Shown: piece after piece, positions 8,372 through 12,683 of the stretch
How the letters are laid out: each line of letters opens with the position of its first letter
Numbering within the stretch: position 1 is the first letter of the stretch
Assembly (NCBI GenBank): GCA_025463265.1
Contig: JAOBWH010000191.1
Span: forward strand, 1-64,000
Direction of reading: 5' to 3'
Length of the DNA stretch: 64,000 nt
Origin: Ilumatobacteraceae bacterium
GTDB taxonomy: Bacteria > Actinomycetota > Acidimicrobiia > Acidimicrobiales > Iamiaceae
Notes under the pieces: model-generated
What the model was told of the DNA's origin: nothing
The model's database searches: none
What the model saw: the letters and a program-made list of their open reading frames with translations, nothing else
Program-made: the position numbers and the translations under genes

Positions 8372-9436
8372 TCAGGTGTCCTCGGTGAGCCGCCGCGCCT
8401 GCTCGTCTTGCACGAGCGCGTCGCTCACCTCGTCGAGGTCACCGGCGAGCACCTTGTCGAGCTTGTAGATGGTGAGCCCGATCCGGTGGTCCGAGACCCG
8501 GTTCTCCTTGACGTTGTAGGTGCGGATCTTCTCCGATCGGCCCCCGCCGCCGGTCTGGTCCTTGCGGGCCTCGGACTGCTCGTCGCGCTGGCGGTCCTGC
8601 TCCAGCTTCAACAGCCGGGACTGCAGCACCACCATGGCCTTGGCCTTGTTCTGGAGCTGGCTCTTCTGGTCCTGCATGGACACCGTCACGCCGGTGGGCT
8701 TGTGGGTGAGCCGCACCGCGGAGTCGGTGGTGTTCACGGACTGCCCGCCGGGTCCCGACGAGCGGTAGTAGTCGACCTGCAGGTCGTTGGGGTCGATCTG
8801 GACCTCGACGTCGGCGGCCTCGGGCAGCACGGTCACGGTGGCCGAGGAGGTGTGGATGCGGCCCTGGGACTCGGTGACGGGCACTCGCTGGACTCGGTGC
8901 GGACCGCCCTCGTGCTTCATGCGGGTCCACACGCCGGCGCCGGAGAGGATGAACGTGACCTCGTTGTAGCCGCCCATGTCCGACGGCTCGGCGTTGAGGA
9001 CCTCGAGCTTCCAGCCCTGCCGCTGGGCGAAGCCCTGGTACATCCCGAACAGGTCGCGGGCGAAGAGGTTCGCCTCCTCGCCGCCCTCGGCGCCGCGGAT
9101 CTCGACGATCACGTTGCGGCCGTCGTTGGGGTCCTTCGGCACGAGCAGGTGCTGGAGCTCAGCGGTGAGGCGCTCGATGTCGGCGTCGGCCTCCGCCGCC
9201 TCCACGCGCATCATCTCCCGGTCGTCGCCGGACAGCTCGGTGAGCATCTCCCGGGCGGTGGCCGCGTCCTCGGTGCGCTGGCGGAGCTCCTTGCTGCGGC
9301 TGACGATGGCCGCCAGCTCGTGGTGGCGCGTGGCCAGCACCCGGTACTTGTCCTGGTCGGCGAAGACGCCGGGGTCGGCGAGGCGCGCCTCCACGTCGAT
9401 GAACTCCCGCTCCAGGCCCTCGAGGCGATCGAGCAT
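8372..9436 (-). CDS. prfA: Peptide chain release factor 1
   Basis: A 354-residue class I release factor for UAA/UAG. The codon-recognition tripeptide is PVT (residues 186-188, in RVPVTESQGRIHTSS), which marks RF1 and not RF2. The GGQ catalytic motif is at 230-232 (SSGPGGQSVNTTDSAVRL). The ATG at 9436 was chosen because it yields the normal N-terminus (MLDRLEGLEREF) and shares one base with the TGA of the upstream gene (TGATG). Upstream in-frame TTG codons would overlap that gene. It is followed by prmC with 1 nt spacing. Confidence 0.97.
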   Translation of the reverse strand: MLDRLEGLEREFIDVEARLADPGVFADQDKYRVLATRHHELAAIVSRSKELRQRTEDAATAREMLTELSGDDREMMRVEAAEADADIERLTAELQHLLVPKDPNDGRNVIVEIRGAEGGEEANLFARDLFGMYQGFAQRQGWKLEVLNAEPSDMGGYNEVTFILSGAGVWTRMKHEGGPHRVQRVPVTESQGRIHTSSATVTVLPEAADVEVQIDPNDLQVDYYRSSGPGGQSVNTTDSAVRLTHKPTGVTVSMQDQKSQLQNKAKAMVVLQSRLLKLEQDRQRDEQSEARKDQTGGGGRSEKIRTYNVKENRVSDHRIGLTIYKLDKVLAGDLDEVSDALVQDEQARRLTEDT

Positions 9437-10470
9437 CAGCGTGATCCGGCGGCGGTCATCGGCCAATCGTCGCCCACGGGGACGACGGTCGCCGGATCCG
9501 CCAGGTGGCCGGCGAGCTCGGTGGTCACCGAGAGGGCGTCCTTGGCCGGCACCGCGAGCACGAGGCGGGCACGGGGTGCGTGGGTGAGGCGGTCGTCGGC
9601 GGCCGACGGCACCAGCTCCAGATCCACGCCGGTGGAACAGGTGACGACCATCGGCTCGCCGTCGAGGCCGGTGCCGACAGCCGTGGCGACGCCCGTCTCC
9701 TTGAGGTTCGCCCTGGGCACCGCCGAGCCGACGGCGCGCAGCTCAGCGGCACCGACGAGGTCGGGGTGGGCGACCAGCACCGAGCGCAGCCAGCGCTCGG
9801 GGACCAGCTGGTTGAGCGGGTGGCGGGCCGCGCCCGGGCGGCGCAGCTCGGCCACGTGCGCGGCCGCACGCACCAGGGCGTCGGTCTCGGACAGCTCGGC
9901 GAACATCATCGCTCCCACCTCGCGGTCGAAGCGGCCGACACCGGCCTCGATGTGGGCCGACCCGTCGTCGGCGAGCACCACCCGGGCGATCTCGAGCCCG
10001 AGGACCTCCCCCAGCAGGACGCCGCCCTCGACCACGGTCTCCAACCCCGCCTCAGCGAGGACCGGGCGGAACAGCTCGGCCTCCGGAGCCGGCGCAGGGT
10101 CCGTGGCGGGCGCGGCGGGAACCGCAGCGGTGAGCGCCCGGCCGTCGACCGCCCAGACCGCGGGCGACGGGGCGAACAGCGCAGCCCGCCGGGCCAGGAC
10201 GGGCGCCGCCTCCTCCGACTCCACGAGCAGGTGCAGCTCCCCGGCGCCGGCCCGTCCGGCGAGCGCGAGCGCACCGCCGAGGCGGCGGACGGCGGTGGCT
10301 CCGTCGTCGAGCAGGATCCACATCCGGCCGGCCCCGGCATCGGTGAGGGCGGCGCCGCCGGGGAACGATCCGGGACGGGCATCGGCGGCGGCGTCGGGCC
10401 AGCGGTCTCGCACGAGCGCGGTGAGCTTCGCGACGAGGAGCGGGGCGCGGCGGTCGGCAGGTTCGGTCAT
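9436..10470 (-). CDS. Unknown protein between rpmE and prfA
   Basis: A 344-residue soluble protein with no family I can name. It is Ala-rich and acidic, without a signal peptide or clear membrane segment. The middle part contains HLLVESEEAAPVLARRAALF and a run EVLGLEIARVVLADDGSAHIEAGVGRFD. The C-terminal part contains LNQLVPERWLRSVLVAHPDLVG and PRANLKETGVATAVG. The ATG at 10470 follows an AGGTGA ribosome-binding site. The gene ends on the prfA start codon (TGATG), so it is probably translated together with RF1. Its position inside a translation-factor operon suggests a link to translation or tRNA/ribosome status. This is inference only. Confidence 0.8.
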   Translation of the reverse strand: MTEPADRRAPLLVAKLTALVRDRWPDAAADARPGSFPGGAALTDAGAGRMWILLDDGATAVRRLGGALALAGRAGAGELHLLVESEEAAPVLARRAALFAPSPAVWAVDGRALTAAVPAAPATDPAPAPEAELFRPVLAEAGLETVVEGGVLLGEVLGLEIARVVLADDGSAHIEAGVGRFDREVGAMMFAELSETDALVRAAAHVAELRRPGAARHPLNQLVPERWLRSVLVAHPDLVGAAELRAVGSAVPRANLKETGVATAVGTGLDGEPMVVTCSTGVDLELVPSAADDRLTHAPRARLVLAVPAKDALSVTTELAGHLADPATVVPVGDDWPMTAAGSR

Positions 10471-10539
10471 GGGATCACCTGGGTCCGGACGCGACGATTC
10501 CGCCAGGAGACCTGGCGGAACCGACACGTGCTGTGGGAG

Positions 10540-10886: not shown

Positions 10887-10906
10887 AGATCGAGCGGTCT
10901 CGATCT
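10887..10906. other. Perfect hairpin at the end of rho
   Basis: AGATCGAG-CGGT-CTCGATCT, arms of 8 bp and a 4-nt loop, overlaps the rho stop codon (TAG at 10905-10907). No T-run follows on the minus strand. It may shield the rho mRNA 3' end or partly separate rho from rpmE. Confidence 0.5.
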
Positions 10907-12683
10907 AGCCCTTGGCAGACCGGGCCGACTTGGCGGCGTCGGCGAGGAGTGCGGCGTTGGTCTTGGTGGCTTCCAGCCGCCCGAGGAGCTCGACGAGCCC
11001 CCCGCCGGGGGTCTCCGACTCGGCTTCGGTCCGGCTGAGGCCGTCGCGAAGGACCGCCGCCTGCTCGAGCTGGGTGCGGTCGAGCAGGAGGTCCTGCTGG
11101 CGGGTGGACGACGCCGACACATCGATCGCCGGGAAGATCCGGCGGGCGGCGAGGCGGCCGTCGAGGCGGATCTCCAGGGTCTCGGTGCCGCGGAACTCGT
11201 CGAAGATGGCCTCGTCGGTGGCGCTGCCGGTGCCGGTGTCGATGGTGGCGAGCACCGTGAGCGAACCGCCCTCCTCGGCGTTGCGGGCGGCGCCGAAGAG
11301 CTGCTTGGGCGGGAACAGGGCCGTGGTGTCGAGCGCGCCGGCCACGACGCGGCCGCCGGTGGGGGCCGCCAGGTTGTGGGCCCGGGTCAGGCGGGTCAGG
11401 CCGTCGACCACGACGACCACGTCCTTGCCCGACTCCACCAGGCGCTTGGCCCGCTCGGTGACCAGCTCGGCCACCGAGGTGTGCTCCTCGGGGGGACGGT
11501 CGAAAGTGGACGACGCGACCGAGCCCCGCAGCAGCCACCGCTTCATGTCGGTGACCTCTTCGGGGCGCCCGGCGACGAGCAGCACGAACACCTCGACGTC
11601 GGCGTGGTTGGCCTCGATGGAGCGGACCACGTTCTTGAGCAGCGTGGTGGCTCCTGCCTTCGGCGGTGCCACGACGAGGCCCCGGCTGCCCTTGCCGATG
11701 GGCGCGAGCAGGTCGATGGCGCGGGCCGTCGCGTTCGACGGATCATCGGCGAGCTCGAGGGTGAGCCGCTCGGTCGGGAACACCGCCGTGAGCTCGCCGA
11801 AGCGCGGGCGGGCCGGCTGGTTGTGGGCCTCGAAGCCGTTGACCGAGTCCACCTGCAGCAGGGCCGGGTTCTTCTCGTTGCGGGCCGGCGGTCGGCTCCT
11901 GCCTCGGACGATGTCCCCGGTGCGCAGGCCGAACTGCCGGGTCTGCTTCACGGAGATGTAGGCGTCGTCGCGCGAGGCCAGGTACCCGTGGAGGCGCAAG
12001 AAGCCGTAGCCCTCGTCGCGCAGGTCGACCATGCCCTCGACCTCGATCGGATCGATGGGGGCCTGGTCGTCTCCCTCGGGGCGGCGGTCCCGGTCGCGCC
12101 CGCGACGGCGGCGGCGGCGGTTGCCCGACTCTCCGTCCGCGTCCTGCTGGTCCGACTGGGGGTCGCGCTGGTTGCCGTCGGGCTCGTTGGCGTCGCCACC
12201 CTGCTGGTTGCCCTGGTTGCTCTGGCCCTGGTTGCCCTGGTTGCGGCCGCCCTGGTCCTGGTTGCCCTGGTCCTGGTTGCCCCGGCCCTGGTTGCCCTGG
12301 TTGCGGCCGCCTTGGTCCTGGCCCTGACCTCCGTTGCGACCGCCGCCGCGGCGGTTCTGCTCGCCGCTTCCCGGCTCGTCCTCGGTGTCCGTGTCGGCGG
12401 ACGACTCGGCGGCCTCGGACGCCGGCGCCTCGGCATCGCCATCAGCCTCGCCGTCGCCGTCGGCACGGACCTCGGTGTCCGGGGCCTGCGGCGCGTCGTC
12501 GGCCTCGGCGGTGCCGTCGCCCTCGCTGCCGTCCGCGCCGACCAGGCGCAGGATCAGCGAGACGATGTCCGCCTTCTTGGCGCGGGCGCCGGGCTTCTGC
12601 CCGAGCTGCTCGGCGATCGCAGCCAGTTCGGCGCGGTCCTTGCCCTCCAGGAGGGTCATGTCGAAGCCGGAACCGTCGCTCAT
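10905..12683 (-). CDS. rho: Transcription termination factor Rho, with degenerate ATPase residues
   Basis: A 592-residue Rho. Order: Rho_N helical domain (about residues 10-50), acidic and Gly/Asn/Gln-rich disordered insertion (about 60-190, with GGRNQGNQG repeats), cold-shock RNA-binding domain (EGYGFLRLHGYLASRDDAYI), then the RecA-like motor. Walker B (VVVVVDGLTRL, Asp427), the arginine-finger region (SSTRQQDLL) and FPAID are kept. However, the P-loop reads APPKAGATT, with Ala345 where the Walker A Lys belongs (E. coli K184). The catalytic segment reads LLVAGRPEEVT, with Ala371-Gly372 in place of Asp-Glu (E. coli D210/E211). I re-read the codons (GCC and GCC-GGG). ATP hydrolysis should be crippled, so this may be a non-motor Rho or one working beside another copy. 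The ATG at 12683 overlaps the stop of a 13-codon leader ORF. Confidence 0.93.
   Translation of the reverse strand: MSDGSGFDMTLLEGKDRAELAAIAEQLGQKPGARAKKADIVSLILRLVGADGSEGDGTAEADDAPQAPDTEVRADGDGEADGDAEAPASEAAESSADTDTEDEPGSGEQNRRGGGRNGGQGQDQGGRNQGNQGRGNQDQGNQDQGGRNQGNQGQSNQGNQQGGDANEPDGNQRDPQSDQQDADGESGNRRRRRRGRDRDRRPEGDDQAPIDPIEVEGMVDLRDEGYGFLRLHGYLASRDDAYISVKQTRQFGLRTGDIVRGRSRPPARNEKNPALLQVDSVNGFEAHNQPARPRFGELTAVFPTERLTLELADDPSNATARAIDLLAPIGKGSRGLVVAPPKAGATTLLKNVVRSIEANHADVEVFVLLVAGRPEEVTDMKRWLLRGSVASSTFDRPPEEHTSVAELVTERAKRLVESGKDVVVVVDGLTRLTRAHNLAAPTGGRVVAGALDTTALFPPKQLFGAARNAEEGGSLTVLATIDTGTGSATDEAIFDEFRGTETLEIRLDGRLAARRIFPAIDVSASSTRQQDLLLDRTQLEQAAVLRDGLSRTEAESETPGGGLVELLGRLEATKTNAALLADAAKSARSAKG

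Follow-up and report, generated by a model that had tools for sequence, protein, structure and literature searches.

Rho is the ring-shaped motor that ends transcription in most bacteria. The stretch of DNA analysed here (the window, 64,000 nucleotides) comes from an Aquihabitans-like genome of the Iamiaceae, the genus being placed by its named relatives, and carries a rho gene in which the ATPase motifs appear to be broken. An earlier note had drawn attention to these motifs. The locus raises the question of whether the product is still a Rho, whether it can still work as a motor and, if not, what the gene has been kept for.

The gene encodes a protein of 592 amino acids, starts with ATG and has a frame without internal stop (Table 1). 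Its product scores above the cut-offs of both PF07497 and PF00006, that is, a Rho-type OB fold followed by a RecA-like domain of the ATP-synthase type. Among the curated Rho models it passes one of two, scoring 441.7 with NF006886 (cut-off 315) and 432.1 with TIGR00767, below the cut-off of 509.45. The best solved relative is M. tuberculosis Rho (7oqh, E=5e-106), and an AlphaFold model (pLDDT 87.6) predicts a Rho fold with TM values of 0.82-0.91 against solved Rho chains. The classic rho-rpmE-prfA locus named by the earlier note was confirmed, the order being rho-rpmE-(363-aa ORF)-prfA-prmC, and the 363-aa ORF is conserved in the rpmE-prfA interval across Acidimicrobiales. Its descent, fold, RNA site and locus mark the protein as a Rho.

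Table 1. Positions in the window of rho, its domains and motifs, and the adjoining genes
Feature	Position	Strand	Basis or detail
rho, predicted motor-dead Rho orthologue	10905..12683	(-)	ORF, profile models, alignment
N-terminal helical bundle region, ~residues 8-50	12534..12662	(-)	weak match, E. coli Rho N-terminus
Asn/Gln/Gly-rich disordered insertion, ~residues 111-186	12126..12353	(-)	composition, comparison with canonical relatives
OB-fold primary RNA-binding domain, residues 207-285	11829..12065	(-)	PF07497; tested invariant sites all kept
RecA-like ATPase / C-terminal domain (CTD), ~residues 299-592	10908..11789	(-)	PF00006
Degenerate Walker A PPKAGATT, residues 340-347	11643..11666	(-)	Lys184 codon is GCC (Ala345), 11649-11651
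AGR replacing DER, residues 371-373	11565..11573	(-)	Glu211 lost, Arg212 kept
Walker B Asp427 (E. coli D265), kept	11403..11405	(-)	alignment
Q-loop region, GG[VI]D to GALD	11328..11366	(-)	alignment
R-loop region	11211..11243	(-)	Lys326 position is Ala488, 11220-11222
Arginine finger Arg528 (E. coli R366), kept	11100..11102	(-)	alignment
rpmE, ribosomal protein L31	10540..10851	(-)	true start ~residue 18 of ORF
363-aa ORF between rpmE and prfA	9436-10527	(-)	without Pfam match
prfA, peptide chain release factor 1	8372..9466	(-)	profile model

In Rho, Lys184 of the Walker A motif holds the phosphates of ATP, and Glu211 activates the attacking water. Alignment to E. coli Rho bore out the reading that both are gone: Lys184 is replaced by Ala345 in the P-loop PPKAGATT, and Asp210-Glu211 by Ala-Gly, the catalytic Glu211 becoming Gly372. 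It also upheld the claim that Walker B Asp265, the Arg366 finger and the RNA-binding residues are kept; the Arg212 valve is retained too, as are all primary RNA-site residues compared (F64, R66, D78, Y80 and E108). Two further lesions had been missed by the earlier note, namely the change of R-loop Lys326 to Ala488 and that of the Q-loop GG to GA. Nearly all of the 80 relatives aligned retain GK[ST] and DER, which sets the losses apart from chance variation. Position 210 varies in otherwise canonical relatives (EER, AER, GER), so the informative losses are Lys184 and Glu211. Since GCC lies at least two bases away from either Lys codon, Ala345 is not accounted for by one miscalled base.

With Lys184 and Glu211 both lost, ATP-driven translocation is predicted to be absent and, judged by its defining residues, the window Rho is probably not a working ATP-dependent motor. 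In laboratory-made mutants, replacement of the catalytic Glu by Ala alone (E. coli Rho E211A, M. tuberculosis Rho E386A) abolishes hydrolysis but leaves ATP binding and oligomerisation in place (PMC4499133). These mutants share the loss of the catalytic Glu with the window Rho but keep Lys184, whereas the window Rho is natural and fixed, carries several lesions and belongs to a repeatedly evolved kind. The idea of an RNA-binding Rho with a disabled ATPase, put forward in the earlier note, is supported by the motif losses, the kept RNA site and these mutants. RNA translocation in Rho is the task of the Q- and R-loops; M. tuberculosis Rho, which has Thr501 in place of the R-loop Lys, is active though weak, and a Lys-to-Thr change in its R-loop weakens activity only slightly (PMC8828861). 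Compared with canonical Rho (E. coli; M. tuberculosis, PDB 7oqh), the window Rho has the same domain order, OB-fold RNA site, predicted fold, Walker B Asp and arginine finger, and it shares the disordered insert and the rho-rpmE-prfA locus with canonical Rho of Actinomycetota, but it lacks the Walker A Lys, catalytic Glu, R-loop Lys and Q-loop Gly.

The losses in this gene are real and also belong to a recurrent pattern that a single gene could not reveal. Rho was found in 356 of the 395 genomes of the class, and the strict Walker A and DExxPEE pattern in 317 of them. Thirty genomes with Rho but without the strict pattern were taken for reading of the motifs; many have mild variants (PSKAGKT, EER, GER), and nine lack Lys184. 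The residue is replaced by Ser in G248 (Glu211 to Gly), by Ala in G283, G412 and G302 (the last with the Q-loop deleted), by Thr in G324 and G290 (the latter with Glu211 to Gln), and by Val or Ala, with Glu211 to Gln, in G349, G405 and G413 of one genus. Lys184 to Gln with Glu211 to Ala was read in G013 (L041/L100). In the window's own genus, among members with the P-loop covered, only the window Rho and that of G006 (L022/L093; PPRSGAT, HER, Arg366 to Ala) are degenerate, and the nearest relative with intact motifs, L085, is 68-69% identical to the window Rho. A sample of 246 genomes spread over Actinomycetota added six without Lys184 outside the class: G519 (Thr), G471 (Ala), G456 (Walker A erased, Walker B Asp to His) and the one-contig genome G615 with G568 and G571 (all Arg). 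As Lys to Arg is milder than Lys to Ala, the last three are the least certain cases. Altogether, Rho without the Walker A Lys was found in at least 18 sampled Actinomycetota genomes (12 Acidimicrobiales and 6 outside the class), the counts being lower bounds because some pattern-negative genomes with partial matches were left unread.

In Acidimicrobiales, every degenerate rho gene with flanks long enough to show it belongs to a rho-rpmE-prfA neighbourhood; in genus g68 only rho-rpmE was seen in the flanks, and rpmE was not detected beside rho in G302. Of the five cases outside the class whose surroundings could be judged (all but G519), prfA is near the degenerate rho in G615, G568 and G456, and neighbours of the rpmE/prfA type are absent from the stretch read in G571 and G471. 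Rho trees were built with the motif columns removed. The Acidimicrobiales tree needs four changes of Lys184 (bootstrap 3-5) and the phylum-sample tree eight, of which seven are forced by well-supported branches. Long branches group degenerate sequences in these trees, so that the count tends to be lowered. Long-branch attraction is likely for L132 (G412), since it groups with the window pair in one Rho tree and apart in another. In the tree of prfA, a neighbour outside the pressure acting on rho, the seven degenerate taxa with prfA available are scattered, with seven changes, three of them forced. A single, horizontally spread pseudo-Rho was considered as a general explanation and rejected on the strength of the shared locus and the scatter on prfA.

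As reference, 98 sites invariant in 50 canonical Rhos were used, the OB fold contributing 14 and the part beyond it 84. Among 11 Acidimicrobiales lineages lacking Lys184, 0 of 154 invariant cells were changed in the OB fold, against 205 of 924 beyond it. The hardest hit stretches are Walker A (44% of cells changed), the Q-loop (42%) and the R-loop (50%); the Walker B stretch is hardly changed (3%). The loss of Lys184 itself follows from the choice of the set, but the contrast between the OB fold and the rest does not rely on it. F64, R66, D78 and Y80 are retained in 17 of 17 Rhos without Lys184. In canonical Rhos the ATPase domain is better conserved than the OB fold, whereas in those lacking Lys184 it is worse conserved, the mean OB-minus-CTD identity being -13 versus +7 (p=5e-9). 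The window Rho itself is 79% identical to L085 in the OB fold, where canonical congeners share 76-77% with one another, and only 65% in the CTD, where they share 84-85%. Taken together, these comparisons show that Actinomycetota have undergone this type of conversion more than once, with OB-fold sites fixed and a faster-evolving ATPase domain.

In genus g68, purifying selection continues to act on the dead-motor CTD. The motor-dead sisters G405 and G413 differ in this domain by 8 nonsynonymous changes as against 28 synonymous ones (pN/pS 0.10, p=1.4e-10 versus neutrality), and G405 versus G349 gives a pN/pS of 0.36 (p=8e-13). Taken by itself, the window gene departs only mildly from a neutral simulation (P(no stop) 0.21, P(no OB invariant changed) 0.05), so the case for selection on it leans on the group. 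At the level of sequence, the two marks of a pseudoenzyme, lost catalytic residues and a fold kept by selection, are present, the direct selection test coming from g68 rather than from the window's species.

We consider it probable that the window gene is the genome's single orthologous Rho turned pseudo-ATPase, a recurrent change, and that it is kept for RNA binding. That motor loss has recurred suggests a useful function of Rho for which no motor is required. The window Rho would no longer terminate by ATP-driven pulling of RNA. Instead, a passive RNA-binding oligomer may load onto unstructured nascent RNA, perhaps touching RNA polymerase and NusG meanwhile, and could act by occupying the RNA or by holding the polymerase. 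Because an RNA-gripping oligomer is left and NusG looks normal, with no alteration seen in the dead-Rho lineages, we favour a passive role that would involve nascent RNA and perhaps the polymerase too. The fast evolution of the ATPase domain speaks against this reading in that it is compatible with slow decay too. A bolder claim, that Actinomycetota repeatedly evolved a motor-less Rho able to stop or hold RNA polymerase solely by capturing RNA and making contact, translocation being unneeded for the role that keeps the gene, is a long shot.

If Rho-dependent termination had become dispensable in these lineages, rho could simply be decaying, and the OB fold might trail behind either by chance or because folding constrains it. 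The fast-evolving CTD and long branches would fit such decay, as would the C-terminal erosion seen in L140 and L229 and the families of the phylum sample in which no Rho was found. Yet the frame is open in every case read, the locus is conserved, the OB invariants are unchanged, and the motor-dead CTDs of g68 are under purifying selection, which together make decay unlikely. That the protein is still an ATPase, with another residue such as Lys181 of PPKAGAT substituting for Lys184 and catalysis rearranged, is quite improbable. Lys181, Arg212, the Walker B Asp and the arginine finger are all present, three relatives have only the mild Lys to Arg change, and pseudoenzymes with migrated residues are known (PMC10211241). 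But Lys181 is an ancestral residue, replaced in other degenerate Rhos by Arg, Glu, Gly, Gln or Asn; the window Rho also lacks Glu211 and the R-loop Lys, and no acidic or basic residue was seen to be newly conserved.

The earlier suggestion of an antagonist of an active copy, that is, a dominant-negative partner of a Rho encoded elsewhere, found no backing in the genome. The proposed search for a second Rho with intact PPKAGKT and DER motifs returned none to E=10 in the window's genome (4.05 Mb, draft, 204 contigs, 96% complete). The next-best match (E=1.9e-9, 28% identity) covers the ATPase region, and the other weak matches in this genome (G000) are confined to that region or the disordered N-terminus; those in the ATPase region we take to be FliI- and F1-type ATPases. 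One Rho match per genome was found throughout the genus (12/12), the other searched genomes with a degenerate Rho also have a single one, and the window gene is the orthologue at the standard locus. Only the possibly missing 4% of the genome speaks for such a partner, which is very improbable. The paralogue model NF041509 (short-form Rho2, exception model paralog_Rho2) describes a Rho homologue as well, but Rho2 is a paralogue by name, while the window gene is the only copy and scores 386.8 against a cut-off of 628. In genus g206, genomes with two pattern matches have GKT and the RPEE motif in both copies. An error of sequencing or assembly, or a contaminant, might be suspected in a draft of so many contigs, but several motifs carry multi-base changes in an open frame, the congener L022/L093 has its own degenerate P-loop, unrelated assemblies show the recurrence, and the adjoining prfA is 86% identical to that of Aquihabitans sp. 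G128; the artefact reading was rejected, and we give it next to no credence.

The earlier note took the Asn/Gln-rich insertion as fitting a scaffold. The insertion is indeed richer here, with an N+Q share of 37% versus 8-27% in canonical relatives. As a sign of a scaffold it is weak, since N/Q/G/R-rich stretches occupy this position in canonical relatives too and the insert of motor-dead L137 has an N+Q share of only 9%. By analogy with B. thetaiotaomicron Rho, which phase-separates and also has a long low-complexity insert before the OB fold, the insert may add condensation; that Rho is an active terminator, whereas condensation of the window Rho is putative (PMC10284900).

As to the termination context, compensation by intrinsic terminators was considered, but a strict scan for hairpin plus T-tract gave 4, 0, 0 and 0 sites in four genomes, counts too small to bear on it. 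U-tract terminators are almost absent from the sampled DNA of dead-Rho and canonical relatives alike, which counts against the preferred reading. Actinomycetota are not among the phyla listed with runaway transcription (PMC13323073). Rho is commonly regarded as a motor, and its depletion is lethal in M. tuberculosis (PMC5379054). Nothing similar to a natural motor-less Rho was found in the searchable literature, the main surveys of Rho diversity lying outside that scope, and its novelty is therefore provisional.

In nature the motor has been lost repeatedly while the RNA grip was strictly kept, a pattern that uncouples Rho's two halves. Motor-less Rhos are natural test proteins for the old dispute over whether termination requires pulling on RNA or is partly achieved by binding RNA and polymerase. 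An annotation of rho as present need not mean ATP-driven Rho termination.

Several other Rho variants and absences were observed in passing. No Rho was found at E<=1e-40 in G433, G492, G502, G541, G551, G600 and G629 of family f74 or in G522 and G580 of f97; the one-contig genomes G492 and G580 have only a weak match (1.8e-15) and none at 1e-12, respectively, and the absence in both families looks like lineage-wide loss. In G104 (family f8), which is 99% complete, neither Rho nor NusG was detected; the assembly may have a gap here or the genes may truly be lost, and since NusG was missed as well, the absence of Rho there is not decisive. In family f94, G531 has a very divergent Rho (L232, E=1.5e-30) that keeps the OB-fold RNA site and GKT and has Glu211 and Arg366 changed; no Rho was found in the other sampled genomes of that family. 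The Rhos L128-L130, L133 and L134 (family f7, genus g17) and L104/L058 (G014) have Walker A Lys and Glu211 intact, but Arg366 is replaced by His or Thr and there is no R-loop Lys; they might represent a weak motor or one at an earlier point in its decay. L068, L070, L071 and L073 lie on a long branch and combine the unusual Walker A PPECGKT and Q-loop VEGVA with retained Lys184 and Glu211.
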